A model generated the notes under the pieces. That model was not told where the DNA came from and ran no database searches. It was given only the letters and a program-made list of their open reading frames with translations. Shown here piece by piece: positions 23,113-62,739 of a DNA stretch of 64,000 nucleotides. The DNA is taken from positions 1 to 64,000 of the forward strand of contig NJIE01000018.1 of the NCBI GenBank assembly GCA_002213445.1. Reading direction: 5' to 3'. Each line of letters opens with the position of its first letter. Within the stretch, counting starts at the first letter, position 1. The translations under genes were made by a program, and so were the position numbers. The stretch is from Xenophilus sp. AP218F (lineage in GTDB: Bacteria > Pseudomonadota > Gammaproteobacteria > Burkholderiales > Chromobacteriaceae).

Positions 23113-24645
23113 ATGGCCAAGCCCTACAAAACCCCCGACGTCTACGTGACCGAGGTTTCCACCCTGCCGCCGTCCGTGGTGCAGGTCGCCACCGCCGTCC
23201 CAGCCTTCATCGGCAACGTCGCCAAAGTGCTGGACGACGGCGGCAACGCAATCGCCCCTCCCGTCTTTCCGGTCATTCGCCGCATCACCTCCATCGCCGA
23301 ATACGAGCAGTACTTCGGCGGGCCGGCGCTGTTGACCGGCACGCTCACCTGCGAGGTTACCCAAAAGAACAACCAAATCATCACGGCCAGCATTTCCTTT
23401 GAGGAAATGGCCGAGACCGGTCTAGATGACAAAAAGAACCCGGTATTCAGCAAAGGCACTTCCGCTGCCAAAGTCAATACCTTGTACTACGCGTTGCAGC
23501 TTTTCTTCGCTAACGGCGGCGGCGTCGCTTACGTGGCGGCCATAGGCGTGACAGGCGGCGGTCTGGCGGAAAATGTCGCGCAAACTACGCCCGTAGACGC
23601 GCTGAAAGCCGCGTTGATCGAACTGGAAAAAGCAGACGAAGTGACGCTGCTGCTGGCCCCGGAATTTGCCACTGCCGCAGATTATGCCGTTAACGCCGCG
23701 CAGCCCTTGCTGGCGCACGCCGCCAAGATGGGCGACCGTTTTGCATTGGTAGACGCGCCATCCACGATCAAACCCAACGACGTGAAGGCTTTGACCAGCT
23801 GGCGCGGCACGATCGCCGGCACGGTGGATACGCTGAAATACGGCGCAGCGTATTACCCGTTCCTGAACACCCCGCTGCAGGCCCAGCCCGATACTGGAAA
23901 AATCGTGGTCGCCGGCACCCTCAAGAAGATCACCGTTGACGAGAACGGCAAGGAACAGACGGCATCGTCCACCATGCCGGAAACCACTCTGGCCGCCTTG
24001 CTCAAGAAATACACCGGCTCGCAGCTGGAAGCTCAAACGCTGGCCCTGCTGGCGCAACAAACGCTGACCCTGCCGCCCTCCGCCGCCATCGCCGGCGTCT
24101 ACGCCCAGACCGACGCCGCCCGCGGCGTGTGGAAGGCACCGGCCAACGTCCCGCTCGCCGCCGTCAACGGCCCCGCCGTCATCGTCACCGCCGAACAGCA
24201 GGGCGAATTCAACGTCGACGCCACCGCCGGCAAGTCCATCAACGTCATCCGCGCCTTCACCGGCCAGGGCTCGCTGGTATGGGGCGCCCGCACCCTCGCC
24301 GGCAACAGCAACGAGTGGCGCTACATCAACGTCCGCCGCCTGTTCAACATGGTGGAGGAGTCGGTCAAGAAGGCCACCGCCTTCGCCATGTTCGAACCCA
24401 ATACCCCGATGACCTGGCTCAAGGTGAAGTCGATGATCGACTCCTACCTCACCGGCCTGTGGAAGCAGGGCGCGCTGTTCGGCGATACCGCCGAGCAGGC
24501 CTTCTTCGTCACCGTCGGCCTGGGCACCACCATGACCGAAGACGACATCAACAACGGCTACATGAACATCAAGATCGGCCTCGCCGCCGTCCGCCCCGCC
24601 GAGTTCATCGAGCTGGCCTTCTCCCACAAATCCATCGGCGCTTAA
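23113..24645 (+). CDS. eCIS contractile sheath protein 1
   Basis: The 510-residue protein has the tail-sheath signature of AFP/PVC/MAC-type systems: N-terminal YKTPDVYVTEVSTLPPSV and VATAVPAFIGNV, and a C-terminal core with WRYINVRRLFNMVEESVKKA, FEPNTPMTWLKVKSMIDSYL and VTVGLGTTMTEDDIN. The first 30 and last 200 residues are nearly the same as sheath 2, while residues about 33-310, including the surface domain, differ strongly. Sheath subunits polymerise around the tube and contract to drive it. It is the first gene of the structural operon, with AAGGA eight bases upstream of the ATG. Confidence 0.96.
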   Translation: MAKPYKTPDVYVTEVSTLPPSVVQVATAVPAFIGNVAKVLDDGGNAIAPPVFPVIRRITSIAEYEQYFGGPALLTGTLTCEVTQKNNQIITASISFEEMAETGLDDKKNPVFSKGTSAAKVNTLYYALQLFFANGGGVAYVAAIGVTGGGLAENVAQTTPVDALKAALIELEKADEVTLLLAPEFATAADYAVNAAQPLLAHAAKMGDRFALVDAPSTIKPNDVKALTSWRGTIAGTVDTLKYGAAYYPFLNTPLQAQPDTGKIVVAGTLKKITVDENGKEQTASSTMPETTLAALLKKYTGSQLEAQTLALLAQQTLTLPPSAAIAGVYAQTDAARGVWKAPANVPLAAVNGPAVIVTAEQQGEFNVDATAGKSINVIRAFTGQGSLVWGARTLAGNSNEWRYINVRRLFNMVEESVKKATAFAMFEPNTPMTWLKVKSMIDSYLTGLWKQGALFGDTAEQAFFVTVGLGTTMTEDDINNGYMNIKIGLAAVRPAEFIELAFSHKSIGA

Positions 24646-25118
24646 GCGCTAGGAGCCCGACATGGCCGTCAAACCACAAGATATCGCCAACACCTATCCC
24701 ATCCCGGTCTACCGCTTCGTCGTCTCCGTCGGCGGCGAATCGCTGTCCTTCTCCGAAGTCTCCGGCCTCGACATCGCCTACGAGACCATCACCTACAAGC
24801 ACGGCATGGGCAAAATCCATATGCCGGGCCAGCAGTCCGACATCAACATCACCCTCAAGCGCGGCCTGGTGAAGAAGCAGACCCAGTTCTACGACTGGAT
24901 CCACTCCATCTCCCTCAACCAGATCGACAAGCGCGACATCACCGTCAGCCTCACCGACGCCACCGGCCAGAAACCGGTCGTCACCTGGAACATCGCCAAC
25001 GCCTTCCCCAAGAAGCTCACCGCCCCGAGCTTCAACGGCGGCTCCAACGAAGTTTCCGTCGAGCAGCTTGAACTGATGGCCGACGACATCACCGTCACCT
25101 TCCACTAAGCCGCGCCGC
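24049..25118. repeat. Direct repeat, copy A (sheath 3' part plus tube)
   Basis: About 1070 bases, covering the last 200 codons of sheath 1, the spacer and all of tube 1, appear identical to 26047-27116 at a constant offset of 1998 bases. Shadow frames through both copies also translate identically, so synonymous sites are conserved too. This indicates a recent duplication or gene conversion. Confidence 0.9.
24662..25108 (+). CDS. eCIS inner tube protein 1 (gp19/Hcp-like)
   Basis: The 148-residue tube subunit has IANTYPIPVYRFVVSVGGES, FSEVSGLDIAYETITYKHGM and a C-terminal VEQLELMADDITVTFH, as in Afp1/Pvc1. It has a strong AGGAG site 17 bases after the sheath stop. The protein is identical to tube 2, encoded at 26660-27106. 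Hexameric rings of this protein form the conduit that carries cargo. Confidence 0.95.
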   Translation: MAVKPQDIANTYPIPVYRFVVSVGGESLSFSEVSGLDIAYETITYKHGMGKIHMPGQQSDINITLKRGLVKKQTQFYDWIHSISLNQIDKRDITVSLTDATGQKPVVTWNIANAFPKKLTAPSFNGGSNEVSVEQLELMADDITVTFH

Positions 25119-25170: not shown

Positions 25171-26643
25171 ATGAGCAAACCGTATACCACTCCCGACGTT
25201 TACGTGACCGAGGTTTCCACCCTGCCGCCGTCCGTGGTGCAAGTGGCCACCGCCATCCCGGCCTTCATCGGCTATGTGGAAAAAGCGCTGGACGACAACG
25301 GCAAGTCGATCGATGTCGGCATCGAAGCCAAAAACGACAAGGGCGTTTCCAACGGTAAAAGCATCGTCACCCGCCGCATCGGCTCGATGCTGGAATACGA
25401 ACAGTATTTCGGCGTCGGCGCGCCGCAATCGGGCACAGTCAAGAAAGGCAGCAACGGCCTGACTTTCCAGGCTGACCCGCAGTCTTTCATTCTCTACTAC
25501 GCGCTGCAGCACTTCTACGCCAACGGCGGCGGCGAGGCCTATATCGTGGCGGTGGGCGATTACCAGGCAACGCCCTCGGCCGGCGACTTCCAGAAGGGCA
25601 TCGCCAAGACCGAGGAGCTGGACGAAGTGACGCTGTTGCTGGCGCCGGAAGCCAGCCTGCTGAAGGTGACCACTACGCCCGCAGATCCCACAACCACCCC
25701 GGCCACTCCCGAAATCATCGTGCATTCGGACTACTACGGCAAAGTCGTCGCCGACATGCTGAGCCAGGCGAAAAAGCTGGGCGACCGCTTCGCGCTGATC
25801 GACCCGGTCGTCAAGGACAAAGACGGCCATGCTCTTTCCCTGAGCGCTTTTCGCAGCATTTTGCGCGATAACCTCACCGGCACCATCGATCAGCTGAAAT
25901 ACGGCGCGGCCTACTATCCGCAGCTGAACAGCAGCATCGCCCCGGCGATTGGCGATGGTTCGAAAATCAAGCTGAGCGGCTTCAGCCAGGCCTCGCTCGA
26001 CAAACTTGGCGTCGCCACCGCCGAATACGCCCAGGTGGCGGCCTTCCTGGCGCAACAAACGCTGACCCTGCCGCCCTCCGCCGCCATCGCCGGCGTCTAC
26101 GCCCAGACCGACGCCGCCCGCGGCGTGTGGAAGGCACCGGCCAACGTCCCGCTCGCCGCCGTCAACGGCCCCGCCGTCATCGTCACCGCCGAACAGCAGG
26201 GCGAATTCAACGTCGACGCCACCGCCGGCAAGTCCATCAACGTCATCCGCGCCTTCACCGGCCAGGGCTCGCTGGTATGGGGCGCCCGCACCCTCGCCGG
26301 CAACAGCAACGAGTGGCGCTACATCAACGTCCGCCGCCTGTTCAACATGGTGGAGGAGTCGGTCAAGAAGGCCACCGCCTTCGCCATGTTCGAACCCAAT
26401 ACCCCGATGACCTGGCTCAAGGTGAAGTCGATGATCGACTCCTACCTCACCGGCCTGTGGAAGCAGGGCGCGCTGTTCGGCGATACCGCCGAGCAGGCCT
26501 TCTTCGTCACCGTCGGCCTGGGCACCACCATGACCGAAGACGACATCAACAACGGCTACATGAACATCAAGATCGGCCTCGCCGCCGTCCGCCCCGCCGA
26601 GTTCATCGAGCTGGCCTTCTCCCACAAATCCATCGGCGCTTAA
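25171..26643 (+). CDS. eCIS contractile sheath protein 2
   Basis: The 490-residue paralogue of sheath 1 starts YTTPDVYVTEVSTLPPSV and VATAIPAFIGYVEK, then has its own middle part (for example IGSMLEYEQYFGVGAPQSG and LDEVTLLLAPEASLLKV). From residue about 293 (LAQQTLTLPPSAAIAGVYAQ) to the end it is identical to sheath 1. The divergent middle includes the domains that face outward in solved sheaths, so the two may differ in sheath stability or surface properties while sharing the same contractile core. AFP and PVC also encode several sheaths. Confidence 0.96.
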   Translation: MSKPYTTPDVYVTEVSTLPPSVVQVATAIPAFIGYVEKALDDNGKSIDVGIEAKNDKGVSNGKSIVTRRIGSMLEYEQYFGVGAPQSGTVKKGSNGLTFQADPQSFILYYALQHFYANGGGEAYIVAVGDYQATPSAGDFQKGIAKTEELDEVTLLLAPEASLLKVTTTPADPTTTPATPEIIVHSDYYGKVVADMLSQAKKLGDRFALIDPVVKDKDGHALSLSAFRSILRDNLTGTIDQLKYGAAYYPQLNSSIAPAIGDGSKIKLSGFSQASLDKLGVATAEYAQVAAFLAQQTLTLPPSAAIAGVYAQTDAARGVWKAPANVPLAAVNGPAVIVTAEQQGEFNVDATAGKSINVIRAFTGQGSLVWGARTLAGNSNEWRYINVRRLFNMVEESVKKATAFAMFEPNTPMTWLKVKSMIDSYLTGLWKQGALFGDTAEQAFFVTVGLGTTMTEDDINNGYMNIKIGLAAVRPAEFIELAFSHKSIGA

Positions 26644-27116
26644 GCGCTAGGAGCCCGACATGGCCGTCAAACCACAAGATATCGCCAACACCTATCCCAT
26701 CCCGGTCTACCGCTTCGTCGTCTCCGTCGGCGGCGAATCGCTGTCCTTCTCCGAAGTCTCCGGCCTCGACATCGCCTACGAGACCATCACCTACAAGCAC
26801 GGCATGGGCAAAATCCATATGCCGGGCCAGCAGTCCGACATCAACATCACCCTCAAGCGCGGCCTGGTGAAGAAGCAGACCCAGTTCTACGACTGGATCC
26901 ACTCCATCTCCCTCAACCAGATCGACAAGCGCGACATCACCGTCAGCCTCACCGACGCCACCGGCCAGAAACCGGTCGTCACCTGGAACATCGCCAACGC
27001 CTTCCCCAAGAAGCTCACCGCCCCGAGCTTCAACGGCGGCTCCAACGAAGTTTCCGTCGAGCAGCTTGAACTGATGGCCGACGACATCACCGTCACCTTC
27101 CACTAAGCCGCGCCGC
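26047..27116. repeat. Direct repeat, copy B (sheath 3' part plus tube)
   Basis: This is the second copy of the repeat described at 24049-25118. It starts inside the sheath 2 gene and ends just after the tube 2 stop at the first bases of the following hairpin. Recombination between copies would delete or duplicate one sheath-tube unit in frame. Confidence 0.9.
26660..27106 (+). CDS. eCIS inner tube protein 2, identical to tube 1
   Basis: The gene encodes the same 148 residues as the one at 24662-25108 and lies in the second copy of the 1070-base repeat. The AGGAG ribosome-binding site and 16-base spacer from the sheath stop are also the same. Two identical copies double the dosage of the most abundant component or reflect recent homogenisation. 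Confidence 0.95.
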   Translation: MAVKPQDIANTYPIPVYRFVVSVGGESLSFSEVSGLDIAYETITYKHGMGKIHMPGQQSDINITLKRGLVKKQTQFYDWIHSISLNQIDKRDITVSLTDATGQKPVVTWNIANAFPKKLTAPSFNGGSNEVSVEQLELMADDITVTFH

Positions 27117-27158: not shown

Positions 27159-27614
27159 ATGGCCAAAACCATCCTGCCCTATCTCGCCGCCTACCGCTTC
27201 GCCGTCACCATGACGGTGGGGCTGAAAATGATCGCCAGCGACCTGCGCTTCCAGTCGGTGGGCAACCTCGACCTGGAACGCAAGCTGGAATGGCAAAACG
27301 GACAAGCCTTCCTGATCAAGGACGAGAGCATCAAGACCTTGACGCTCAAGCGCGGGCTGATCGCGCCGGGCAACGCCAAGGACAACCCGCTGGAAGACGC
27401 GACCCGGCAACAGATCACCCTCTGGAGCGAACGTCTGGTGCGCACCGACCTGCTGATCAACGCCTTGGACGACAAAGGCCAGCCCAAGGCCACCTGGAAA
27501 GTGGACGGCGCGGTGCTGCGCAAGATCGACTGGGGCGGCCTCGACGCCGGCCGCAACGAGATCCTGCTGGAAGAAATGCAGTTTGAATACCGCGTATTGC
27601 GTCCGTTCTCATGA
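27159..27614 (+). CDS. eCIS tube-like protein (Afp5-like tube initiator)
   Basis: The 151-residue tube-fold paralogue is clearly diverged from tubes 1 and 2: LPYLAAYRFAVTMTVGLKMI, GNLDLERKLEWQNGQAFLIK, TLTLKRGLIAPGN and a C-terminal NEILLEEMQFEYRVL. In AFP/PVC such second tube proteins (Afp5) join the tube to the baseplate hub. AAGGA precedes the ATG. The stop overlaps the next start by ATGA. Confidence 0.88.
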   Translation: MAKTILPYLAAYRFAVTMTVGLKMIASDLRFQSVGNLDLERKLEWQNGQAFLIKDESIKTLTLKRGLIAPGNAKDNPLEDATRQQITLWSERLVRTDLLINALDDKGQPKATWKVDGAVLRKIDWGGLDAGRNEILLEEMQFEYRVLRPFS

Positions 27615-27782: not shown

Positions 27783-28496
27783 ATGAGCGATTCAAGTTTG
27801 CCGCAACTGACCCTGCAGGCCTATCTGGACAAGGACTGCAGCCAGACCAAGGGCAACGGCTGGATCATTCCCTACCAGCCGGGCAGCCTGAAGCTGACGC
27901 TGAACAACGAACAAAAAGAAACCAAGGTGCTGGGCTCGACCAGCAAGGTCGCCTACCAGGGCACGCCGGCGGCCACGCTGACGGTCACCTTGCTGCTGTA
28001 CAAGGTGTACTACGAGGATTGGCAAGCGTTCCAGTCAGGCAAGGGCCGCGCGGTCAAGGAGCAGCTCAAGCTGCTGTACGAAAGCCTGTACCAGGTCAAC
28101 GGCGACACCCATCAACCCTCCTTCGTCACCGTAGACTGGGGCGAAGACCTGCTGCTGCCCTACGCCGGCAAGAAATTCCGCGGCGTGCTCACCCGCGCCG
28201 ACGCCAGCGAGCAGCACAACGACGGCAAGGGCACGCCCACCTACATCAAGGTGGAATGCTCGTTCACCGAGATTCCGCCGGACGTGGACGCCAAGAAGAA
28301 CTCGCCCGACCTCACCCACTACCGCAAGGTGGTGGCGGGCGACCGGCTGGACTACAAGACCTGGCAGATCTACGGAGACGGTTCGCTAACGCCACAGGTG
28401 GCGCGCGGCAACGATCTGGACAGCCCGCGCCTGATCGCGCCCGGCCAGGTGCTGAGCTTCCCGCCCTTCTCCACCAGCGTGGAGAGCCAGCCATGA
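27783..28496 (+). CDS. LysM-containing baseplate protein (Afp7-like)
   Basis: The 237-residue protein has a phage gp53-like body (GWIIPYQPGSLKLTLNNEQK and FRGVLTRADASEQHND) and a C-terminal LysM-like domain (about 183-230: VVAGDRLDYKTWQIYGDGSL then NDLDSPRLIAPGQVLSFPPF). In contractile systems this protein ties the tube hub to the wedges. The ATG follows the spacer after the small DUF5908-like gene, and the stop overlaps the spike gene by four bases. Confidence 0.9.
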   Translation: MSDSSLPQLTLQAYLDKDCSQTKGNGWIIPYQPGSLKLTLNNEQKETKVLGSTSKVAYQGTPAATLTVTLLLYKVYYEDWQAFQSGKGRAVKEQLKLLYESLYQVNGDTHQPSFVTVDWGEDLLLPYAGKKFRGVLTRADASEQHNDGKGTPTYIKVECSFTEIPPDVDAKKNSPDLTHYRKVVAGDRLDYKTWQIYGDGSLTPQVARGNDLDSPRLIAPGQVLSFPPFSTSVESQP

Positions 28497-30085
28497 CCGA
28501 TATCGCCTGCTCGATCGGCAGCGTCAAGCTGCAAGCCTGGCACCTGGCGCGCATGGAGTGCGAAGCCGCCGCCAACCAGCCCACGCGGCTGACTCTGGAC
28601 ATCGCCGGCGACAGCCTGGATGACGCCGCCTGGCCCAAGGGCGCGGACACCGTCGAGCTGGGCAGCGCCGTCTCGCTCGACCTGACCCCGGATGGCGAGA
28701 AACAACCCAAGACCCTGTTCAAGGGCCTGCTCACCGAACGGCGGCTGGTGCTGGACGGCGACCAGGCGCTGCTGCGCCTGGTATGCCACTGCAGCGCGGT
28801 GAAGGCCGGCGTCGGCGCGCTCGGCGCGGTCAAGAAAGACAAGATCAAGGACGGCGCGCTGGTCAAGGAAGTGCTGGAAACAGCCGGCGTCGCGCTGGCC
28901 GGCAAGCAGGCCAAGGCCGACAGCGAGCATCCGCAACGGGTGCTGCCGCCGGTCACTCCCTGGCTGTACGCGCGGCATCTGGCCGCCGCCAACGGCCTGG
29001 TGCTGGTTTCCAGCGCCGACGGCGTGGCGCTGCACGACCCGCAAGCCAAGAGCAAGGCCCAGCTCTTCAAACTGGGGCTATCCGCCTTGCTGAGCGTGGA
29101 GTTGGCCGAGGATGCGGAAGACGCCATCCCCGAAGCCGGCGTCGACGCCTGGAGCGTCAAGGAGCAATCCACGCCGGCCACCCAGCCGGCCAAGGCCGAC
29201 GACGCCCAATCCGCGCCGGCCGGCAAGCTGGGCCGCAAGGCGATCAAGACGCGCAGCGCCGCGCCCATTCCCAAAACCGCCTGCGAGGCGCTGGCGCGCG
29301 CCCGCGTCGCCCGCGCCGCGCTCGCCTCGCGCCAGGGCAGCGTGGAAGTCGCCGGCTATCCGCCGGCCTGGGTCGGCGAGCGGATCAAGCTGGACAAGGC
29401 GCCCAAGAGTCTGCAGAGCGAATTCTGGGTGGGCGGCGTCCACGTCACGCTGGACGAGCAAGGCCTGCGCAGCACGCTGCAACTGGGACTGGAGCCGGAA
29501 CGCTTCGACCCGCCCGCGCCGCTGCCGACGCCGCCGCTGATGACCGGCGTGATCCAGCCCTACCAGGACGACCCCGCCGCGCTGCTGCGCCTGCCGGTCA
29601 AGCTGATGGGCGTGCCCGACCCCGACAACCTCGCCTTCGCCCGGCTCGCCACGCCGCTGGCCGGCAAGGACCGCGGCCTCTACCTGCCCTTGCAGCCGGA
29701 CGATGAAGTGGTAGTCGGCTTTCTGGGCGACAGCTGGGACTGGCCGGTGATTCTGGGCGCGACGCACAACCCCAAGCAGAAGCCGCCCTTCCCCTACGGC
29801 AAGGAAATGCCCAAGCACGGCCTGGTGCTGGAAAAGGACACGCAGCAGCTGATCTTCGACGCCAAGGACCAGAACCTGATCCTCGGCAACGACGCCGACA
29901 CCGACCTCAAGCTTTCCAAGAAAGACGGCCTGGCCGCCCGGCGCGGCAAAGACTTGCTCAAGCTGGCCAAGGGGGCGGCGCTGCAAAGTCCGGACAACGG
30001 CCTGAAGCTGAGCGGCAAAGCCGGCGAGATCAAGAGCGACGGCGCGCTCGACATCAAGGTCGGCAGCAGCGTCAACATTTCCTGA
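28493..30085 (+). CDS. eCIS VgrG-like spike protein (Afp8-like)
   Basis: The 530-residue protein has a gp27-like part (ITxYR-type KLQAWHLARMEC through YARHLAAANGLVLVSS), a gp5 OB domain (LMTGVIQPYQDDPAALLRLP, PLQPDDEVVVGFLGDSWDWP, VILGATHNPKQKPPFPYG) and a beta-helical needle (LILGNDADTDLKLSKKDG to GALDIKVGSSVNIS). It is shorter than the T6SS VgrG at the left edge and lacks its DUF2345 extension. It forms the central spike under the tube and bears the PAAR-like tip encoded two genes later. Confidence 0.93.
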   Translation: MTDIACSIGSVKLQAWHLARMECEAAANQPTRLTLDIAGDSLDDAAWPKGADTVELGSAVSLDLTPDGEKQPKTLFKGLLTERRLVLDGDQALLRLVCHCSAVKAGVGALGAVKKDKIKDGALVKEVLETAGVALAGKQAKADSEHPQRVLPPVTPWLYARHLAAANGLVLVSSADGVALHDPQAKSKAQLFKLGLSALLSVELAEDAEDAIPEAGVDAWSVKEQSTPATQPAKADDAQSAPAGKLGRKAIKTRSAAPIPKTACEALARARVARAALASRQGSVEVAGYPPAWVGERIKLDKAPKSLQSEFWVGGVHVTLDEQGLRSTLQLGLEPERFDPPAPLPTPPLMTGVIQPYQDDPAALLRLPVKLMGVPDPDNLAFARLATPLAGKDRGLYLPLQPDDEVVVGFLGDSWDWPVILGATHNPKQKPPFPYGKEMPKHGLVLEKDTQQLIFDAKDQNLILGNDADTDLKLSKKDGLAARRGKDLLKLAKGAALQSPDNGLKLSGKAGEIKSDGALDIKVGSSVNIS

Positions 30086-30095: not shown

Positions 30096-30494
30096 ATGCA
30101 AGACAACGCTTTTCTCGGCCAGGGCTGGGCCTTCCCCATCCGCTTCCTGCGCCCCGACTTCGTCCAGCTGCAAAGCGGCGAGGGGCTGATCCGCCAATCC
30201 ATGCGGCTGATCCTCTCCACCCTGCCCGGCGAGCGCGCGATGCGGCCGGACTTCGGCTCGCAGCTCAACCGCGCCCTGTTCGACGGCGTGGACGGCCGCA
30301 CCCTGCACAACCTGGAACACAGCGTCCAGGACGCGCTCTCCCGCTTCGAGCCGCGCATCGACATCAACGACGTCGCCGCCCTGGCCGGCGACGAAGCCGG
30401 CCAGGTATGGATACGCGTCGACTACACCGTGCGCGAGACCAATACCCGCAACAACCTGGTCTACCCCTTCTGGCTGACCGAGGCTGCGCAATGA
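30096..30494 (+). CDS. Baseplate wedge protein, gp25/Afp9-like
   Basis: The 132-residue protein has the gp25-family pattern: GWAFPIRFL, then LILSTLPGERAMRPDFGSQL and later VRETNTRNNLVYPFWL. Family members (T4 gp25, TssE, Afp9) connect the wedge to the first sheath ring. GAGGA precedes the start. The stop overlaps the next gene by ATGA. Confidence 0.93.
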   Translation: MQDNAFLGQGWAFPIRFLRPDFVQLQSGEGLIRQSMRLILSTLPGERAMRPDFGSQLNRALFDGVDGRTLHNLEHSVQDALSRFEPRIDINDVAALAGDEAGQVWIRVDYTVRETNTRNNLVYPFWLTEAAQ

Positions 30495-52145: not shown

Positions 52146-52149
52146 ATGA

Positions 52150-52905: not shown

Positions 52906-53007
52906 AATCTTTCCCCTTTTATATTTTAGGATAACCTGGCTGCGTTTCGAAATTCAGACCGCTGAAATCCCCATATCGTCCAAATCTATTCAACACCGTC
53001 CACCTCG

Positions 53008-53120: not shown

Positions 53121-53123
53121 ATG

Positions 53124-53624: not shown

Positions 53625-53727
53625 GGTTCCTATATCCTTTCTCTATGCCATCACGGTTCATCAAGAAATAGCGGGACAGTCCACCATTTCCTACCTTCCC
53701 AACTCTTCCTCACCACCTCGAGACTGC

Positions 53728-54312: not shown

Positions 54313-54375
54313 GTAGGGTGCGATACCCGGCCACCGAGATTCCTGTGATCCGCTTTACGGCCGGGCATCGTACCG
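54313..54375. repeat. Single REP hairpin, copy 4
   Basis: One GTAGGGTGCGATACCCGGC ... CCGGGCATCGTACCG hairpin lies exactly between the pseudogene copy and the intact gene. It provides the last codons and stop (54355) of the intact minus-strand gene. Confidence 0.85.
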
Positions 54376-56283
54376 CTCGCGTCTCAACACCCGCCCACTC
54401 CGCACATTCCCGCTCCAGACCTCCGATTCGAGCTCGCCGGCTAACAAAGACAAACCCCGCCCCATCCACCCCCGCCCGCGCCATTCTGGCGCGACGAAGG
54501 TGCAGACATTGACCGCGCCACCGTCTGCCCCAGCACGCAACACGATGAACCCCACCAGCCCCAGCGCCGGGTGCAGCAGCGCCAGCGGCAGGGCGGCCGG
54601 GTCAGCGGCCTCTTCGCTTATCCACGCCGCGGCGGCGTCCACATCGGCCAAGTCCGGTAGCCGTGTCAGCGCCATGTCGTGGACATCGCGGCAGGCCCAG
54701 GCCAGTTCGCGGGCGTGGTGCGGCATCAGCGGCGACAGCGCCAGGCCGGTGCCGTCGCACCGGGCGCGCGCCGGGTCCCAGCCCAGGCGGGCGGCAAAGC
54801 AGCTTTGCCAGTCGTTAATGCGCGCGCGCAGGCGGCGGGTTTTGGGGTGGTCCGGCTCCACGGCCTCCAGCGCGGCGAGGATGTCTTCCGCGCGCGGCGC
54901 GTCGCCGGTGAGCATTTCCAGCAGCGCCAGGTTGTGCAGCGCCGGGGCCGGGTTGGCGGCCTGCGGCAGCGCGTCCAGCAACGCCGCCCGCGCCACGCCG
55001 TAATGCGCGAAGCGCATGGCGAGGCAGCCTAAAGAAAATGCGTGCGCCTCGCCGGGGCGGGCGCGCTGCCAGGCCTGCTCCAGCGCCGCCAGCCAGGCGG
55101 CGCGCTGGGCCGGGTCTATCTCCTGTTTTTCCAGCTCTTCCATATGCCGCGCCAGATAGCGCGGGTTGCAGCCGGCGCGCTGGACTGCCGCCAGGCTGGC
55201 CGCCTCGTCGCCGAACAGCGCGTCCGCCTGCCAGCCTTGCGCCGCCAGGCGGGTGAGCGGCCACGGCGCGTGGCCATCTTGCAGCACGCCGTGCAGCAGC
55301 GCGGCTTGCTCGCCCGCCCGCCACAGCGCGCGCAAGGCGGGGTGGCGGCGGACGATGGCTTCGGCATTGAGCGGCAGCGCCGCGTCCAGTTCTGCCGGCA
55401 GCGTTTGCGGCGGCGCGGCGGCGTAAGCCAGGTCCGCCAGATGCACCAGCACGCCGTCCGGGTGGGCGGCGCTTAGGGTATCCAGGTGGGCAAATAGCGT
55501 GACCGGCAGCGCGGCCACGCCGCAGTCGGCGCGGCCTTGCTGGCGCGCCGCCAAGGCTTGATCGGCCGCGTCGTCGAACAGCGGCGGCAGCTCCGGTTGC
55601 GGCAGCGGGCCGCCGACGGCGATCTTGACTGGTTCGGCGGGATAGTCCGCGCGCGGCGTCAAGCGCCAGCGCGGGCCGTCTTCCGTCATCGCCACCCGCG
55701 CCTGCCAGGCTTCGCCATAGTGGTTCCAGGCGATTTTGGCCGGGCGGCGGCTGTAGTGGCCGTGGGCGATCAGCGCGGCGTGGCGGCCGGCTTGCGGGGC
55801 CACGTCGCCGTCCGCGATCTGCCAGTGGCCTTGTTGTATCAATTCGGCGATGTCGTCCTGCTCGGCCACGTGCGGCAAGGCGTGGTAGAGGCGGAACACG
55901 GCGGGCGGCATGCCCAGCTCGCCGGCTTCGTCCAGCAGGTTGCGCCACAGCTGCCAGGCGTAAGCGCCGTCGTGGCTGCCGGGCAGGTGCACGGTGACGG
56001 GCGCGTCCGCATCCGCCGCGCCGTCCAGCAGGAAGGCCAGCAGCTGGCGCGCGGCACAGAGCGCGCCGCCGCCCTCGTGCGCCAGCGCCGGGGCCAGCCG
56101 CGCCGGGCTGTCCGTCCACAGGCCGCTGTCCTCGCTGGGCAAATCCGGCGCGCCCTCCGGCGCGGTGGAGACCGGCGGCGGACGGCGAGCGATGGGCTGC
56201 GGGTTGTAAACGGGCTGGGCCGGCGCGGGGCGCGGCAAGAGGCGCAGCGGGTGCACGGAGGCGGTGTGGGCGGCTTGGCTCAT
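54355..56283 (-). CDS. Large unknown protein with GNAT-like C-terminus
   Basis: The 642-residue protein has no family I can name for its first 500 residues. These include a hydrolase/methyltransferase-like stretch (LPGSHDGAYAWQLWRNLLDE, HAALIAHGHYSRRPAKIAWN) and a TPR-like helical part (ALHNLALLEMLTGDAPRAED). Residues about 560-630 resemble a GNAT acetyltransferase: LGLVGFIVLRAG, VNVCTFVAPEWRGRGWMGRG with the RGRGxxG acetyl-CoA loop, then a helix. The C-terminus (ERYDARP) is encoded by the REP element, so the native end has been replaced. It might modify cargo or eCIS proteins; that is speculation from location. Confidence 0.55.
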   Translation of the reverse strand: MSQAAHTASVHPLRLLPRPAPAQPVYNPQPIARRPPPVSTAPEGAPDLPSEDSGLWTDSPARLAPALAHEGGGALCAARQLLAFLLDGAADADAPVTVHLPGSHDGAYAWQLWRNLLDEAGELGMPPAVFRLYHALPHVAEQDDIAELIQQGHWQIADGDVAPQAGRHAALIAHGHYSRRPAKIAWNHYGEAWQARVAMTEDGPRWRLTPRADYPAEPVKIAVGGPLPQPELPPLFDDAADQALAARQQGRADCGVAALPVTLFAHLDTLSAAHPDGVLVHLADLAYAAAPPQTLPAELDAALPLNAEAIVRRHPALRALWRAGEQAALLHGVLQDGHAPWPLTRLAAQGWQADALFGDEAASLAAVQRAGCNPRYLARHMEELEKQEIDPAQRAAWLAALEQAWQRARPGEAHAFSLGCLAMRFAHYGVARAALLDALPQAANPAPALHNLALLEMLTGDAPRAEDILAALEAVEPDHPKTRRLRARINDWQSCFAARLGWDPARARCDGTGLALSPLMPHHARELAWACRDVHDMALTRLPDLADVDAAAAWISEEAADPAALPLALLHPALGLVGFIVLRAGADGGAVNVCTFVAPEWRGRGWMGRGLSLLAGELESEVWSGNVRSGRVLRRERYDARP

Positions 56284-56444
56284 GATGGGCTGGCGGAATA
56301 AGGCCCGGGCGGGCGGGTGGGGCGCAGGCTGCTGCCTGGCGCGGGGACTGTCCGGCCACTATACGCCAAAGCGGCGGCTTGCCCAGCCGGGCGCGACACA
56401 GGCGGTGGAGCGGGGGCGGCATGCGGGGCGAAGTTGAGCGCATC

Positions 56445-57554
56445 ATGGCAGCACGCTCTTCCCCGCCGCCATCGCGCGCCCCTTCTCTTCTGGTACGCCT
56501 CATGCACGCCCTCCCCGCCACACGCATCCAGCATCGCTACAGCTACGTCAACGTCCTCATGCCGGACCCGCCCAACCTGGCCGGCGTGGTCAAACCATAC
56601 AAGGTGGGCCAGCGCATGGACGCCCGCCTCAACCCGGACGACGTGGTGGTGGGCAGCGCCACCGGCCCCAACTGGACCTGGATGCAGGCTTTGCGCCAGC
56701 GTTACGCCGCCGCCAACGTGGTGCGCGGCCATTTGCTCAATCACGATCTGGGCGGCCGGTCGGTGGAGGAGAATCTGTACCCGATTTCCACTTCCGCCAA
56801 CGGCGAGCACAGCCGCAACGTGGAAGTTCACGTCAAGGAAGCGCTGGCCGATACCAAGCGGCTGGCTTGGGACCAGCCGGTGGAGTACTCGGTGCAGGTG
56901 CAGGAAAACGCCGCGCACGACCCGGCAGCGGCCCGCTTTGTGTGCGACTGGGAATACGGCCCCAGCGGCGGCCGCGTGGCTCAGACCTATACCGTGACAT
57001 CCAATTTGCAGCTGGGGTCGGCCTATTCCGGCCGCGCCACCGGCCCCAAGCTGGCCAGCTGGGACCACGACAAGGGCGGCAGCCTGGCGCAGGAACGCAT
57101 CGCCTTCGCGGGGCTGAGCCCCAGGGTCAGCGCCGAGTGGCACGATGCCACCAACCCGGCCCCCGCCCTGGAACCCAGCGTGGAAGCGCCGGGCGGCCAC
57201 GGCGGGCTGCCGGATTGGTGGAAAAACAATCAATGGACGCTGGAGAGCTGGGCCAAAGCGCCGCTGCTTGAGGCGCTGGCGTGGATGGACACGCAAAGCG
57301 CCCAGGGCAAGGACACGGCGTTTTCCTTCGGCACGCTGCCCCGGGCGGAAGCGGAAGACATCGTGGATGCCTGCGCCACGCCCAAAACCGGCCAGCCGCT
57401 GGCCGCGTCGGTTTGGAACCGATACTGGAAATGGCTGCAAGCCGACGGCGCGCGGCGCGGCTGGTTCTTGTCCAACTACGCGCTCGTCAAGCCGGACCCG
57501 GCGCGGCTGGTGCCCGACTTCGTCCAGTGGGCCAAGGATGAGCTGCTGACCTGA
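56445..57554 (+). CDS. Candidate nuclease cargo with GHLLN motif, larger form
   Basis: The start is uncertain (56379, 56421, 56445 or 56502 are in frame); from 56445 the protein has 369 residues. The region NWTWMQALRQRYAAANVVRG followed by HLLNHDLGGRSVEENLYPIS, then TSANGEHSRNVEVHVKEAL, matches the nuclease-like block in the protein at 48859-49428 and DNA/RNA non-specific endonuclease domains. The C-terminal 180 residues are separate (SWDHDKGGSLAQERIAFAGL; LPDWWKNNQWTLESWAKAPL) and lack a known match. It lies just before the second palindromic motif and the fibre/lysis module. Cargo role is inferred. Confidence 0.6.
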   Translation: MAARSSPPPSRAPSLLVRLMHALPATRIQHRYSYVNVLMPDPPNLAGVVKPYKVGQRMDARLNPDDVVVGSATGPNWTWMQALRQRYAAANVVRGHLLNHDLGGRSVEENLYPISTSANGEHSRNVEVHVKEALADTKRLAWDQPVEYSVQVQENAAHDPAAARFVCDWEYGPSGGRVAQTYTVTSNLQLGSAYSGRATGPKLASWDHDKGGSLAQERIAFAGLSPRVSAEWHDATNPAPALEPSVEAPGGHGGLPDWWKNNQWTLESWAKAPLLEALAWMDTQSAQGKDTAFSFGTLPRAEAEDIVDACATPKTGQPLAASVWNRYWKWLQADGARRGWFLSNYALVKPDPARLVPDFVQWAKDELLT

Positions 57555-57603: not shown

Positions 57604-57623
57604 TGTGTAGCAAATTGCGACAC
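57604..57623. promoter_or_regulatory. Palindromic 20-bp motif, copy 2
   Basis: This is an exact copy of the motif at 22859-22878 (TGTGTAGCAAATTGCGACAC). It is 248 bases before the Cro-like regulator gene, almost the same distance as copy 1 is before the first sheath gene. That matched spacing supports a shared regulatory or segregation role. Confidence 0.55.
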
Positions 57624-57851: not shown

Positions 57852-58100
57852 ATGGAACTTTCGGTCTACATCCACTGCATCGGCGATGAAACCGCCGCCC
57901 GCCAATTCGGCGTCGCCATCCGCACCGCCAGCAGCTGGCGCAGAATGGAGCGCGCGCCCAGCCCGCAGCAGGCGCTGAAAATCGTTGAATTGAGCGCCGG
58001 CAAGGTGGACTGGAAGGGCATTTACGCGCCCTACGCCCGCCATCGTCTGCGTCGCGCCGGCGAGCGTTCGCTGCCCTCCTCGCTGCGGCTGGGCGACTGA
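57852..58100 (+). CDS. Cro-like helix-turn-helix regulator
   Basis: The 82-residue protein has a single HTH (ETAARQFGVAIRTASSWRRM) followed by a short helical end with WKGIYAPYARHRLRR. This resembles small Cro/YdaS-type phage repressors. I chose ATG 57852; ATG 57834 is an in-frame alternative. It opens the module encoding the second fibre and lysis genes and is preceded by repeated GATATCG sites. It likely controls its own expression and perhaps that module. Confidence 0.65.
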   Translation: MELSVYIHCIGDETAARQFGVAIRTASSWRRMERAPSPQQALKIVELSAGKVDWKGIYAPYARHRLRRAGERSLPSSLRLGD

Positions 58101-58271: not shown

Positions 58272-59819
58272 ATGCCCACATTCAATCTCCACTCCCGCGC
58301 CGAGCTCAAAAAGCGCTTCTCCGCCGGCAGCAAGCCCACCGCCGCCGATTTCGCCAATCTGCTGGACAGCGTGCCCAACCTGGGCGACGACAAACTGGTA
58401 GCCAACGACGCGCTGCAACTGCAGATCAGCGCCGACGCCAGCGGCAAAACCACGCTGACGGCGCTGCCCGACGCCAAATTGCAAGGCAACCTGCAGGTTG
58501 CCGGCCCCGCCACGCTGGCCTCCGCGCTGACGGTGCAAGGCGCGGCCACCCTGAACGGCGCGGCGTCCGCCGCTGCCCTCAACGTGCAAAACGCCGCCGC
58601 CTTCAACGGCCCCGCCGCCTTCGCGTCCACGCTGACGGCGCAAGGCGCGGTCGAACTGGCCGGCGCCACTCACGCCGCCGATCTGAAAGCGGATCAGCTG
58701 ACGCTGTCGTCCACCGCGCCGGTCAAGTCCATTCGCGGCAAGGACTTGCAACTGAGCGCCCAGCCGGACGCGGAGCTGGCCACCGTGGGCGCCATTCGCC
58801 AGTACGTGGCGGAAACCTCGCTGGGACTGACGCTGCGCGCCAGCGCCAAGGCAGTGGCCGTGGACTACTTCGACGTCAAGAGCCCGCCGGCCAGTGTGGA
58901 CGGCGTGTTGCTGGCCAAGGGCGATACCATCTTGCTGACCAACCAGGGCGGCGGCAAAGGCCACCCCGACAACCGGCTGTGGACCTGGGGCGACGCCGGT
59001 TGGCAACGCGCCGCCGCCACCGACGGCGACCCGTACTACGAACTGGAGCCGGGCACCGCGGTGCTGGCGCTGATGGGCAACGCCAACGGCGGCAAGCTGT
59101 GGGTGATGACCGCCGCCAGCGGCGATCCGCAATGGGCGCCGCGCACCGACCTGGACTACCTGAGCGCCGGCGACGGCCTGAAGAAATCCGGGCTGATCAT
59201 GCAGGTTAACCTGGCGGCCAACAGCGGGCTGGCCGCCGACCCTTCCGGCCTGAAAGTGGGGGCCGGCAACGGACTGATAGCCAGCGGCGGCAACGTCCAT
59301 ATCGCCGTCGGCAATGGCCTGGACGCCAGCGCCGATTTGCTGCAGCTGAAACTGGACCCGGCCGGCGGGTTGTCCGCCGTCCCGGCTGGTCTCAAGGCCA
59401 ATATCGGCCCAGGCCTCGCCATCGCCGGCAACGCGCTTCAGGTGAGCACCGCGGGCGACAGCGGCTTGTTCTCCGACGCCGCCGGCCTGAAGGTGGGCGC
59501 GGGCAACGGACTGGTGGCCAGCGGCGGCAGCATCCACGTGGCCGCCGGCAACGGCCTGGACGCCAGCGCGGATTTGTTGAAGCTGAAACTCAACTCCGCT
59601 GGTGGGTTGATCGCCGACGCATCCGGCTTGCAGGTAAGCGCCGGAACAGGCCTGACAGCGGGCAGCTCGCTGGCGGTAGACACCAACTGGCTAAACAAAA
59701 CCTGGCTGCCGCAGCGAATCGCGATGGTGGCGGAAGGACCAACGTCGGACGACACCTTGGCGCGCGTGAATCAGGCTTTGGCCGCCGGCGCGCTGCTGGT
59801 CGGCACTTACCGGAGTTGA
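58272..59819 (+). CDS. Second tail fibre / receptor-binding protein
   Basis: The 515-residue fibre starts with SRAELKKRFSAGSKPTAADF, which resembles the attachment region of fibre 1 (TRADLETKFGNNQTPTGEDF). Short beta-repeats follow (GAATLNGAASAAALNVQNAA), then a C1q/needle-like central region (WTWGDAGWQRAAATDGDPYY). The last 200 residues repeat LKVGAGNGLIASGGNVHIAV-type units, as in phage tail fibres. The common N-terminus implies it docks on the same baseplate site as fibre 1, giving an alternative target range. The next gene starts four bases after its stop. Confidence 0.85.
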   Translation: MPTFNLHSRAELKKRFSAGSKPTAADFANLLDSVPNLGDDKLVANDALQLQISADASGKTTLTALPDAKLQGNLQVAGPATLASALTVQGAATLNGAASAAALNVQNAAAFNGPAAFASTLTAQGAVELAGATHAADLKADQLTLSSTAPVKSIRGKDLQLSAQPDAELATVGAIRQYVAETSLGLTLRASAKAVAVDYFDVKSPPASVDGVLLAKGDTILLTNQGGGKGHPDNRLWTWGDAGWQRAAATDGDPYYELEPGTAVLALMGNANGGKLWVMTAASGDPQWAPRTDLDYLSAGDGLKKSGLIMQVNLAANSGLAADPSGLKVGAGNGLIASGGNVHIAVGNGLDASADLLQLKLDPAGGLSAVPAGLKANIGPGLAIAGNALQVSTAGDSGLFSDAAGLKVGAGNGLVASGGSIHVAAGNGLDASADLLKLKLNSAGGLIADASGLQVSAGTGLTAGSSLAVDTNWLNKTWLPQRIAMVAEGPTSDDTLARVNQALAAGALLVGTYRS

Positions 59820-59822: not shown

Positions 59823-60581
59823 ATGGCCATTTATCAAAATGGATCGACTCAATGCGTTCCATCCATCTATGGACCGACATCCGCCGGGACAAAACGACTA
59901 AGCGCCGTCTATGCCCAAGTATCGGGGGCCACTTGCCGTATTTATGAAGATAGCAATCTGGCGGTTTTTGTTAATGCGGCATATCACTTCATCAGCAACA
60001 ACGAAGCAAATGAATCATTGAACGTTAGGAATACGCTAGTCCGCAACGGGCTCGGTGGATTCTCCGTGTTTGACAGCATGACGACCTCAGGCCAACTCTT
60101 GGCGCTAGCTGGAAAAAAATATCTGGTGATTCCTGATTTGGAGCATGGCGATTTGCTTGCCGACCTTGGTAATAATGCTTTAAGTTCTTTGCTGAATTTT
60201 GTTGGTCGGGGTGGTCATTTGCTGCTTTTCCACACAGGCACATGCACTGTCCGCCTGATGGAAAACTTCGATATGAAAATCTCTTCAATACTGCCAAGCG
60301 GCGATTTCAAACGAACTTCCGAATCATTACCAGGTTTGCCTGCCAACCTTCCAGATAGTTTGGTGTTCGCAATGAATCCACCCAGTTGTAGTAGCATCAT
60401 GGCTCTTAAAATCTCCGATTCGAACAGAACAGCCTACACAGTTTTGTACGGCAATAGCGACAATGCCGGGGTTCTAAGTTTTACTTATGGTCAAGGGCGA
60501 GTGAGTTATCTGGGTTGGGACTGGTGCGGCAAAAGCAACGCCAACTGGGAAGCCGTGTTGATTGGTTTGCTGCAGGTTTAA
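59823..60581 (+). CDS. Fibre-linked protein of unknown function, AT-richer than neighbours
   Basis: The 252-residue protein has GGAG upstream and lies four bases after fibre 2. Its composition is clearly lower in GC. Visible are a Cys-containing N-terminus (NGSTQCVPSIYG, VSGATCRIYED), a central alpha/beta region like glutamine-amidotransferase-like folds (KKYLVIPDLEHGDLLADLGN; VGRGGHLLLFHTGTC) and GQGRVSYLGWDWCGKSNANW near the end. It could be the receptor-binding tip or a fibre chaperone acquired together with fibre 2. No firm family. Confidence 0.6.
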   Translation: MAIYQNGSTQCVPSIYGPTSAGTKRLSAVYAQVSGATCRIYEDSNLAVFVNAAYHFISNNEANESLNVRNTLVRNGLGGFSVFDSMTTSGQLLALAGKKYLVIPDLEHGDLLADLGNNALSSLLNFVGRGGHLLLFHTGTCTVRLMENFDMKISSILPSGDFKRTSESLPGLPANLPDSLVFAMNPPSCSSIMALKISDSNRTAYTVLYGNSDNAGVLSFTYGQGRVSYLGWDWCGKSNANWEAVLIGLLQV

Positions 60582-60904: not shown

Positions 60905-61180
60905 ATGCCTGAAGCCGCGCGTCCCGCCGATTACGACCGCCGCTTGCAGGCGCTGGAAACCGCCATCTCCGAGCTGGCGCGCCAACGCGAGGCCCAGCAG
61001 CGCACGCTGGACGAACTGCACGCCGTGGTCAACGACCTGCGCGACTTGCTGCAAGCCTGGGAAACCACCCGCGGCGCTTTCCACCTGCTGCGCGCGCTGG
61101 GCAACGCCGCGCGCTGGCTGATCACCGTGGCCGCCGCCGTGGCGGCGCTATGGCTGTGGATGAAGTCCAGCTTCAAGTAG
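60905..61180 (+). CDS. Holin-like protein (XhlA-type layout)
   Basis: The 91-residue protein has an N-terminal coiled coil (DYDRRLQALETAISELARQR and LDELHAVVNDLRDLLQAWE) and one C-terminal membrane helix (WLITVAAAVAALWLWM) with a short basic tail. This is the layout of XhlA-like haemolysin/holin accessory proteins of phages and phage-derived particles. I chose ATG 60905, next to GGG/AGGA. It is the first gene of the lysis cassette. Whether it alone forms lesions is not known. Confidence 0.75.
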   Translation: MPEAARPADYDRRLQALETAISELARQREAQQRTLDELHAVVNDLRDLLQAWETTRGAFHLLRALGNAARWLITVAAAVAALWLWMKSSFK

Positions 61181-61234: not shown

Positions 61235-62263
61235 ATGATGCTTATTTCGCTTATCCGACGCGCGCGTCTGCCGGAACGCTGGCAGCGCCGACTGCAAGAC
61301 TGGCGCCGCGATTTGCGCGGCGACCTGGTTCGCCTGGCCTGGCTATCGCTGGTCGCTGGCTTCAGCCTGCTGGCGCTCAACCGGCTGCCCTGGGCCGGCA
61401 CCCCGGGCGACCTGCTCTCCGCGCTGGCCTTCGTGCTGGCGGCGATGACGCTGCTCAGCCACGCGCTGCGCCGCATCCTGCTGCCGCGCGTGCAGTTGGG
61501 CGAGCTGGCGGTTTGCGCCCAGCGCGAGCCGCTGTCCGCCGCCATCGCCTTCGCCGCCGTCCTGCTGTTCAAGGCCTGCCTGCTGTTCGCCTTCGTCCTC
61601 TTGTTCATCATGCCCGGCCACGCGGCCGCCCTGCCCGCCGGCTTGCCCGCCAACGCTTACCGCAACTTGCCGCTGGTGCTCAGCGAGCAGCGCTCCCTGT
61701 GGCCGGATCATCCTGCGCCTTCGGTGCTGGCGGCGCAGATCGAACAGGAAACCTGCCCCTCGCTCGGCTCGCGCCAGTGCTGGTCGGAGCGCGCCGAGCT
61801 GAAGACCGCGCGCGAACACGGCGTGGGCCTGGGCCAGGTGACGCGCACCGCGCGCTTCGACACCCTGGCCGATCTCAAACGCCAGCACGGCAAGCTGCTG
61901 GCCGGCTGGTCGTGGAGCCGCCCTTACGACGCGCGCCTGCAAGCGCGGGCGCTGGTGCTGCAGGATAAACGCTGCTATCAGCCTTTGAGCGGCGTAGCCA
62001 ACGCCGAAGAACGGCTGGCGATGGCGCTCAATTGCTACAACGCCGGCCCCGGCATGCTGGCCATCAGCCGCAGCCGCTGCGCGGCGCAAACCGGCTGCGA
62101 TCCGGCGCGCTGGTTCGGCCACGTGGAGCGGGCGGAAGGGCCCAGCCGCCGCGTCGGCTACGGACAGCGCTCGTTCTACACCATCAGCCGCGAATACGTG
62201 TCCAACATCATGCTCAAGCGCCGGCCGCGATATCACTTTCTGGACGCGCCGAGGCCGGCATGA
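61235..62263 (+). CDS. Membrane-anchored lytic transglycosylase-like endolysin
   Basis: The 342-residue protein has two or three N-terminal hydrophobic segments (VRLAWLSLVAGFSLLAL, LLSALAFVLAAMTLLSHAL, and FAAVLLFKACLLFAFVLLFI). A lysozyme-like SLT domain follows, with the catalytic Glu candidate in LAAQIEQETCPS, GVGLGQVTRTARFD and ALNCYNAGPGML. Four to six Cys residues suggest disulphides in the periplasm. It should cut peptidoglycan during lysis. The stop overlaps the i-spanin start (ATGATG). Confidence 0.85.
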   Translation: MMLISLIRRARLPERWQRRLQDWRRDLRGDLVRLAWLSLVAGFSLLALNRLPWAGTPGDLLSALAFVLAAMTLLSHALRRILLPRVQLGELAVCAQREPLSAAIAFAAVLLFKACLLFAFVLLFIMPGHAAALPAGLPANAYRNLPLVLSEQRSLWPDHPAPSVLAAQIEQETCPSLGSRQCWSERAELKTAREHGVGLGQVTRTARFDTLADLKRQHGKLLAGWSWSRPYDARLQARALVLQDKRCYQPLSGVANAEERLAMALNCYNAGPGMLAISRSRCAAQTGCDPARWFGHVERAEGPSRRVGYGQRSFYTISREYVSNIMLKRRPRYHFLDAPRPA

Positions 62264-62739
62264 TGGGCCGCGTGCTGCTAGTGGCCATGCTGGCTTTCAT
62301 CGCCGGCGTGATGCTGGGCCGCGCGCGGGCGCAAGACCAGGCCCTGCGTCAGGGCGAAGCGCAGCGCGAAGCCTGGCTGCGCCGCTGGCAGGAGCAGGAG
62401 CGCGGCAACGCCGCCCTGGCGCGCCGGCTGGCCGACGAGGCCCTGCGGCGCGAATCCGCCGTTCGATCACTGGAGCGCAATCTTGAAGACTATCGCCATC
62501 GCGTTCGCCAGCGCGTGTTGCTGCCTGGCGCTTGGCGGCTGCAGCACGACGCCGCCGCCCGCCTGTCCGCCGCTGCCCAGCCCGCCGCCGACACTATTGA
62601 CGCCGCCCGGCCAGTTGATGACCTTGCCGCCCTGGAAACCGTCACCGGCAACTACGTCCAATGCCAGGAATGGCGCGCCGCGCTGATAGGCTGGCAACAA
62701 TGGCATCGGCAGCTGGCCGTGCCGGCCGCTTCGCCATGA
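62260..62739 (+). CDS. i-spanin (Rz-like)
   Basis: The 159-residue protein starts in overlap with the endolysin gene. It has a single N-terminal membrane anchor (VLLVAMLAFIAGVMLGRARA) and then a periplasmic coiled coil (ALRQGEAQREAWLRRWQEQE, ESAVRSLERNLEDYRHRV). This is the Rz architecture. With the lipoprotein encoded inside it, it would fuse inner and outer membranes in the last step of lysis. Confidence 0.82.
   Translation: MMGRVLLVAMLAFIAGVMLGRARAQDQALRQGEAQREAWLRRWQEQERGNAALARRLADEALRRESAVRSLERNLEDYRHRVRQRVLLPGAWRLQHDAAARLSAAAQPAADTIDAARPVDDLAALETVTGNYVQCQEWRAALIGWQQWHRQLAVPAASP
62483..62686 (+). CDS. o-spanin lipoprotein (Rz1-like), nested in the Rz-like gene
   Basis: The 67-residue frame lies entirely within the i-spanin gene in another frame. 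It starts at TTG 62483 with GGAG upstream and has a lipoprotein signal with lipobox (FASACCCLALGGC). A Pro-rich mature part follows (STTPPPACPPLPSPPPTLLT). Size, lipobox, Pro richness and nesting are exactly those of phage Rz1 proteins. Confidence 0.85.
   Translation: MKTIAIAFASACCCLALGGCSTTPPPACPPLPSPPPTLLTPPGQLMTLPPWKPSPATTSNARNGAPR

Follow-up and report, generated by a model that had tools for sequence, protein, structure and literature searches.

A probable pChV1-type plasmid element of Xenophilus sp. AP218F with a complete extracellular contractile injection system and candidate release genes

To our knowledge, the route by which the particles of extracellular contractile injection systems (eCIS) leave the cell is still open for most systems. 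Type 10 secretion systems consist of a holin, an endolysin and a spanin pair. In a survey from 2014, Afp/PVC-like clusters were set apart from pyocins partly by the absence of a lysis system, and pyocins appear there without an ATPase (PMC4122934). A review from 2023 describes some eCIS loci without a lysis cassette (PMC10598620), and a lysis set beside the afp genes of the Serratia entomophila plasmid pADAP is, in substance, given in a review from 2026 (PMC12961389). The plasmid pChV1 of Chromobacterium violaceum ATCC 12472 was published as a probably defective bacteriophage with one putative lysis protein, and the same paper states that tail-like particles had earlier been seen in C. violaceum (PMC5871888). 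Here we analysed the first 64,000 nt of contig NJIE01000018.1 of Xenophilus sp. AP218F (the window; coordinates are positions on this contig). With a probability of about three in four, the region is a pChV1-type plasmid element of ~45.8 kb that encodes one complete delivery unit, with particle, cargo, exchangeable second fibre, release set, and partition and replication functions. Because particle, lysis and plasmid-inheritance genes travel together, the particle is probably equipped with its own means of leaving the cell.

The eCIS operon, the lysis set and the element around them

Positions 23113-47917 hold a complete Afp/PVC-type eCIS, as proposed in an earlier note made from the sequence alone; its core parts, identified by Pfam and PDB matches, follow the Afp order. 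The matched parts are two sheath and three tube proteins, CIS_tube, spike, gp25, spike tip, baseplate J, an Afp12/Pvc12-like protein, tape measure, AAA ATPase and Pvc16_N. Features of the Afp/PVC class are present throughout: a gp19-type tube, a C-terminal sheath domain, gp25, baseplate J, spike and spike tip lie within a single operon, and AAA ATPase, CIS tape measure and Pvc16 terminator are all found. Among PDB sequences, the tube matched Pvc1 and Afp1, the sheath Afp, Pvc and All3325, and the Afp12-like protein Pvc12, Afp12 and Algo12.

All of these genes are on the plus strand. The operon begins with a duplicate pair of sheath 1 and tube 1 (23113..25108; PF17482, PF06841), followed by sheath 2 and tube 2 (25171..27106; the same families, with PDB matches), tube 3 in an Afp5-like position (27159..27614; PF06841), a CIS tube/Afp7-like protein (27783..28496; PF19266, E 9.5e-17) and a VgrG-like spike (28019..30085; PF04717), given as its longest open reading frame (ORF) with the true start probably further in. 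The baseplate region comprises a gp25-like protein (30096..30494; PF04965), the spike tip (30407..30931; PF19267), a baseplate J-like protein (30956..34525; PF04865) and the Afp12/Pvc12-like protein (35691..38123; PDB matches SalCis12, Algo12, Pvc12 and Afp12). The first fibre (38136..41960) was assigned from its Afp13 position and an N-terminus in common with the second fibre, and is 51-52% identical to its counterparts in pChV1-type plasmids. The operon closes with the tape measure protein (42489..45191; PF19268, E 8.5e-42), an Afp15-like AAA ATPase (45178..47025; PF00004) with 72-73% identity to three C. violaceum plasmids, and a tail terminator of the Pvc16 family (47018..47917; PF14065, E 1.9e-16). 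The sheath-tube pair is thus tandemly duplicated at 23113-27106; in the eCIS of genome G012, four sheath-type and three tube-type matches stand in a row (L063:9553-15601).

Downstream, a second fibre, a holin-like gene, an endolysin gene and an Rz/Rz1 pair are followed by parB (PF02195) and parA (AAA_31), which agrees with the order read earlier. The lysis set occupies 60905-62739 on the plus strand, and an endolysin together with an Rz candidate carrying the nested lipoprotein frame Rz1 gives it the endolysin-spanin layout of a lysis cassette. The holin-like protein (60905..61180) has, by eye, a charged N-terminal part and one C-terminal hydrophobic segment, and shares 65-68% identity over 81 aa with plasmids L188 and L189 and with Parachitinimonas caeni. 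The endolysin (61235..62263) joins a membrane part at its N-terminus to a domain resembling lytic transglycosylases; it matches phrog_669, 'endolysin' (5.7e-16), and its N-terminal part weakly matches a holin family, phrog_8226 (E 0.019). Since this membrane part ends, by eye, in a signal-peptide-like stretch, export and activation could be built into a single protein. Such a fusion characterizes the eCIS-linked endolysins, while at most of the other loci listed the membrane part is encoded by a small gene of its own in front of the enzyme gene. The candidate inner-membrane spanin Rz (62260..62739) matches phrog_4952 (8.9e-10), and the candidate outer-membrane spanin Rz1 (62483..62686), found by a signature scan, is nested in it, proline-rich and equipped with a lipobox. 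As phrog_4952 is labelled just 'signal peptide motif', the naming of the spanins rests on the nested two-frame layout; a related Rz1-like frame is present in P. caeni.

The second fibre (58272..59819, plus strand; 515 aa) combines an eCIS-type N-terminus, a phage-family middle part and a repeat shaft. The N-termini of the two fibres resemble each other (E 2e-08), and the first 50 aa of the second fibre found a match in 17 of 24 other eCIS genomes and at none of 10 endolysin-homologue loci (E<=0.01). An adenovirus-fibre-type repeat was also matched (3.2e-05), and the whole protein had no tblastn match among 50,697 phage records at E 1e-5. Given the eCIS-type N-terminus, and despite the phage-family middle part, the protein most likely serves the particle as a second fibre of mosaic build. 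Between it and the holin-like gene lies a variable, fibre-linked gene for a 252-aa protein (59823..60581, plus strand; 32% by tblastn to a pChV1-type gene), at whose place P. caeni has a different gene; its structure prediction was discarded (pLDDT 33.7). Upstream of the fibre, a small regulator candidate (57852..58100, plus strand) is conserved at 86% in pChV1-type plasmids and 74% in P. caeni. The corresponding TTG-start ORF (57810-58100) had no Pfam match at E 0.01 and one PDB match at E 0.53, and the label 'Cro-like' given to it earlier therefore finds no support in Pfam or PDB, for a protein 74-86% conserved in two of the three other lineages. The 252-aa gene had been omitted from the module as read earlier, and the unit does not end at 62739.

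Instead, it continues through parB (62808..63719, minus strand; PF02195, E 7.3e-24; 73% to pChV1), parA (63694..64527, of which the window holds 63694..64000, minus strand; AAA_31; 93% over 246 aa to pChV1) and replication genes to ~68.7 kb of the contig. ParA, ParB, a replication initiator and palindromes at parAB mark it as a pChV1-type plasmid element. The 17-bp palindrome TGTAGCAAATTGCGACA forms the left bracket at 22861..22877, ~250 bp 5' of the sheath ORF; the same variant recurs at 57606..57622, and a further copy lies at the end of parB (62796..62812). On the contig, copies start at 22861, 57606, 62796, 64614, 68419 and 68682, so that the outermost ones bracket 22861-68698 (45.8 kb) and the series divides the eCIS, lysis and par modules. 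In the whole genome (3.98 Mb, <=1 mismatch), the palindrome occurs at 7 places, 6 of them within 22861-68698. In the form TGTAGCAAnTTGCTACA it flanks parAB in all four lineages described below, and the pChV1 paper describes the same repeat beside parAB (PMC5871888). The palindrome may be the ParB site, and the copies that precede the sheath and regulator genes by ~250 bp could couple the expression of the two.

Two genes just left of the palindrome bracket, encoding a KfrA-like plasmid DNA-binding protein (19534..20604, minus strand; PF11740, E 3.2e-13) and a tyrosine recombinase/integrase (20619..21836, plus strand; PF00589, E 3.5e-16), are of uncertain membership. The flanks look chromosomal, with vgrG and uronate genes and, by eye, a biosynthetic cluster on the right; the contig shows no end overlap of 15-399 bp. 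In a search for an empty site, the flanking DNA (15640-19500 and 69099-73999) gave nothing beyond short matches in 18 other genomes of the genus, except G013, which keeps about half of the left flanking stretch at 68% and has no eCIS match. The left and right ends of the element share as 14-mers the palindrome and one GC-rich 14-mer, and nothing else. In scans for promoters and terminators, the sequence did not clearly exceed its shuffled versions. Capsid, terminase and portal genes, the marks of a prophage or phage-plasmid, were absent from the scanned window ORFs and from the 38 annotated pChV1 genes. McrBC-like restriction genes lie upstream of the element (5162-8906).

Recurrence of the combination in other lineages

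The same eCIS, lysis set and parAB occur together in four lineages, namely the window genome, C. violaceum plasmids, Iodobacter fluviatilis pl1 and a P. caeni contig; particle, lysis and plasmid-inheritance genes thus co-occur in several water and soil bacteria. The C. violaceum relatives are circular plasmids of 43-49 kb. Among 72,556 plasmid records, the endolysin matched six, four from C. violaceum (two of them, both 49,107 bp, may be one plasmid), one from Iodobacter and one from Pseudomonas. The eCIS tube is present in the five C. violaceum and Iodobacter records, which also head the 67 plasmid matches to the pChV1 tube; the Pseudomonas plasmid is not among the 40 of these matches that were listed.

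pChV1 (44,212 bp, circular) has homologues of most window genes, with identities of 91% for the tube, 72% for the ATPase, 63% for the nuclease, 86% for the regulator candidate, 58% for the GNAT protein, 45% for the second fibre, 32% for the 252-aa gene, 65% for the holin, 80% for the endolysin, 51% for Rz, 73% for ParB, 93% for ParA and 55% for the replication initiator. Its 30 consecutive annotated genes from sheath to spanin are all on one strand. It holds no match for the reverse transcriptase or several other genes of the cargo island described below. In Iodobacter pl1, parA and parB are followed by the fibre, a small gene on the opposite strand, holin, endolysin, Rz and, 252 bp further on, the sheath. 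In P. caeni DQS-5 (G332), the module precedes the sheath with all its genes on the same strand, and a single 371-aa ORF separates Rz from the sheath. It is 74% (regulator), 68% (holin), 66% (endolysin), 35% (Rz) and 52% (fibre N-terminus) identical to that of the window; the parA (60%) and parB (43%) of P. caeni lie ~11 kb past its eCIS and are flanked by the same palindrome. P. caeni was the sole relative found by a scan of 84,980 species genomes with two short peptide patterns, a scan that may miss the genome of the window itself and those closest to it. Identity to the window drops from pChV1 through Iodobacter to P. caeni for endolysin (80, 70 and 66%), tube, sheath, Rz, second fibre and ParB; the holin breaks this order (65, 46 and 68%, over unequal lengths). 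Circular elements that had been opened or rearranged at various sites would be expected to differ in gene order in this way.

The 41 rows of the endolysin tree comprise 5 eCIS-linked endolysins, 10 loci from genomes of the family and 26 viral contigs (of 30 viral loci, 4 dropped out at the E-value limit), and the five eCIS-linked endolysins form one group (SH-aLRT 100) apart from the 36 other homologues. Among the 10 family loci, seven are lysis cassettes with spanin-like pairs, by eye mostly beside tail-type genes. The other three (L057, L058 and L059) are surrounded by housekeeping-type genes, and inspection by eye showed no spanin, so that a host-owned use of the endolysin relative is possible there. 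In these three genus members, a small membrane-protein gene precedes the endolysin relative.

The eCIS tape-measure family occurs in 5 of 61 genomes of the family and in 21 of 399 genomes of the order, the window's own included in both counts, and the endolysin in 13 of the 61. We compared the eCIS stretches of 24 other genomes, 20 from the order and 4 from the family; those of G226, G367, G310, G170, G275, G088 and G293 are shortened by contig ends, G269 lies near a contig start, and for G387 20 of 44.7 kb were covered. One of the 24, P. caeni, has the module. In the stretches of the remaining 23, which include two members of the same genus (G005 and G012), no match to the window endolysin or the pADAP lysis proteins was found, other endolysin families not having been searched. 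A scan for Rz/Rz1 signatures recovered the window and 7 of the 10 endolysin-homologue loci and missed the P. caeni pair; its matches in G273 and G269 were judged spurious by eye. The absence of the lysis module from the 23 genomes is therefore moderately secure. The earlier note had named relatives with the operon and without the module as a finding that would speak against linkage; the three nearest eCIS lineages detected all carry the module, and it is the more distant eCIS that do not show it.

Cargo island and alternative readings

Between the eCIS operon and the regulator candidate lies an island of candidate cargo genes on both strands (47948..57554). It includes a DNA/RNA non-specific endonuclease (48859-49557, minus strand), a GNAT/TPR-like protein (54355-56283, minus strand) and a gene at 56379-57554, each with a homologue in pChV1. 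The GNAT match is under the cut-off for the window protein and slightly over it for the pChV1 protein; 53791-54308 partially duplicates the 3' portion of the GNAT-like gene (90%). A reverse transcriptase of the UG4 class (50732-51679; RT_UG4 match) has a 55% relative beside a fibre-like gene in the eCIS of genus member G005 (L067:9662-10582). UG4 enzymes are reported to adjoin fimbrial genes in 66% of cases (PMC8934634); neither tail fibres nor contractile systems turned up in a term search of that paper. The possibility that the reverse transcriptase belongs to a diversity-generating retroelement that targets the fibres was considered and rejected in view of the RT_UG4 match; the nearest large repeat is the partial GNAT copy, whose differences appear mixed by eye. 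Repeats of ~165-190 nt with the core GTAGGGTGCGATACCCGGC part the cargo cassettes (49514-49678, 50527-50694, 51755-51944 and 54312), and 6 of 8 whole-genome matches to this core (<=1 mismatch) fall in the island.

Three other explanations were weighed. Under the first, the element is decaying, with particle or lysis genes no longer working in the window genome and the linkage a trace of shared ancestry. The partial GNAT duplicate, the opposite-strand cargo genes, the duplicated sheath-tube pair and an IS interruption in Iodobacter fit such a history; the lysis and structural ORFs are open, however, and the two-frame spanin layout and many endolysin positions are conserved, which makes decay unlikely. 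Under the second, the lysis set is a stand-alone, type-10-like secretion system that exports, for example, the nuclease and lies near the eCIS by chance. It has the same component classes, and such lysis frees the Tc toxin in Yersinia entomophaga (PMC10847048). The constant partners of the lysis set are nevertheless the eCIS and parAB, in Iodobacter and P. caeni it sits shortly before the sheath gene, at a distance of 252 bp and of one ORF, respectively, and it includes a fibre with an eCIS-type N-terminus, so we consider this very unlikely. The third, in which an unrelated prophage inserted next to the eCIS and left the lysis module and second fibre behind, could draw on endolysin homologues in 78 phage records and in family genomes, on the seven family cassettes with spanin-like pairs and on the phage-like fibre middle, and is rejected as hardly credible by the linkage conserved in four lineages, the separate endolysin group, and a fibre with an eCIS-type N-terminus and, as a whole, no match in the 50,697 phage records at E 1e-5, which largely disposes of the unrelated local prophage that the earlier note had raised against itself; a long-ago phage origin of the module is likely.

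Several observations count against the pChV1-type delivery unit that we prefer. In the window, ~10 kb with genes on both strands separates the structural and lysis genes, so the two modules are not one operon or transcript there; the earlier idea of a self-contained unit with its own release module is supported by the four-lineage linkage and needs correction on this point. Up to E 0.1, the Pfam and PHROG matches of the holin-like protein include no family of holins; the full lysis set claimed earlier is borne out for the endolysin and the Rz/nested Rz1 candidates, with a holin-like protein that lacks a holin-family match. The regulator candidate has no recognised domain and no match in the Iodobacter pl1 stretch L191. 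The middle part of the second fibre (139-331) matches phrog_2647, labelled head decoration (3.8e-10), so the gene is partly phage-related. The palindromes upstream of the eCIS and the regulator are specific to the window, as the three C. violaceum plasmids scanned hold only two, at parAB. In Iodobacter pl1, IS21 genes lie between fibre and Pvc16, where neither a tape measure nor an ATPase is annotated. The five lysis-linked eCIS fall, in the sheath tree, on one side of a branch with an SH-aLRT of 3, and the tube tree does not separate them from G005, G012 and pADAP; Iodobacter groups with P. caeni in the endolysin tree (90) and with Chromobacterium in the sheath tree (94), a conflict. Finally, the family and genus relatives, taken alone, would have spoken against linkage: in the other four family genomes with an eCIS, the endolysin was unmatched (G005 and G039) or lay ~1 Mb or further away (G012 and G038).

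For the preferred reading, a pChV1-type plasmid with its own release set, we infer from the genes that they are co-expressed and operate as one unit, that lysis releases the particles and that these have a target. A regulator near 57852 would permit expression on a signal; particles would assemble and load cargo, for which the non-specific endonuclease is among the candidates. The holin-like protein and the membrane-anchored transglycosylase would open the inner membrane and wall, Rz/Rz1 would break the outer membrane, and a fraction of the cells would burst, freeing the particles.

Comparison with known systems

A release set beside an eCIS is already known, as in pADAP. The more distant tube matches number 62, and six plasmid eCIS from among them, all outside the pChV1-type family, were checked: a lysozyme or GH19 hydrolase is annotated in the 10 kb upstream of the tube in four and is absent there in two. 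A description of this lysis family, its eCIS and parAB as one unit was not found in the open-licence literature searched. A wider proposal, for which the case is evenly balanced, is that these elements form an unrecognised family of self-contained eCIS plasmids, headless and phage-plasmid-like, which secure their own inheritance through parAB, arm their host with a particle loaded with cargo and release it by their own lysis set, and that mobile eCIS keep release genes from different phages while chromosomal eCIS tend to lose them and rely on host lysis. If true, release genes would have been taken on different occasions, of the transglycosylase type in pChV1-type elements and as lambda-holin plus lysozyme in Serratia. 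Because C. violaceum ATCC 12472, a laboratory strain in common use, pairs the particle with the lysis set, eCIS release can be tested there by gene removal.

R-type tailocins (pyocins) resemble the locus in having a regulator, holin, endolysin and spanins with a contractile particle (PMC10598620); the window differs in its eCIS AAA ATPase, Pvc16 terminator, spike tip and cargo candidates. Unlike in a type 10 secretion system, the lysis set is linked to a particle and a fibre, not just to secreted enzymes. pADAP (Afp) is likewise a plasmid eCIS, with a holin, a lysis protein, a second holin and a lysozyme annotated directly upstream of the tube gene, but its lysis proteins are different ones, with a lambda-type holin; at E 0.01, tblastn matched none of them to the window or to any other stretch compared. 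The closest system is pChV1, which shares the eCIS, cargo nuclease, regulator candidate, GNAT protein, second fibre, 252-aa-type gene, holin-like protein, endolysin, spanin, parAB and replication initiator. The phage-like delivery unit of the earlier note is supported, its kinship to this plasmid having been missed. pChV1 is a free circle of 44.2 kb, whereas the window element lies on a contig with chromosome-type flanks. In its available text, the pChV1 paper names neither an eCIS nor a release set (PMC5871888), and the published 'defective bacteriophage' plasmid can now be re-read as an eCIS plasmid.

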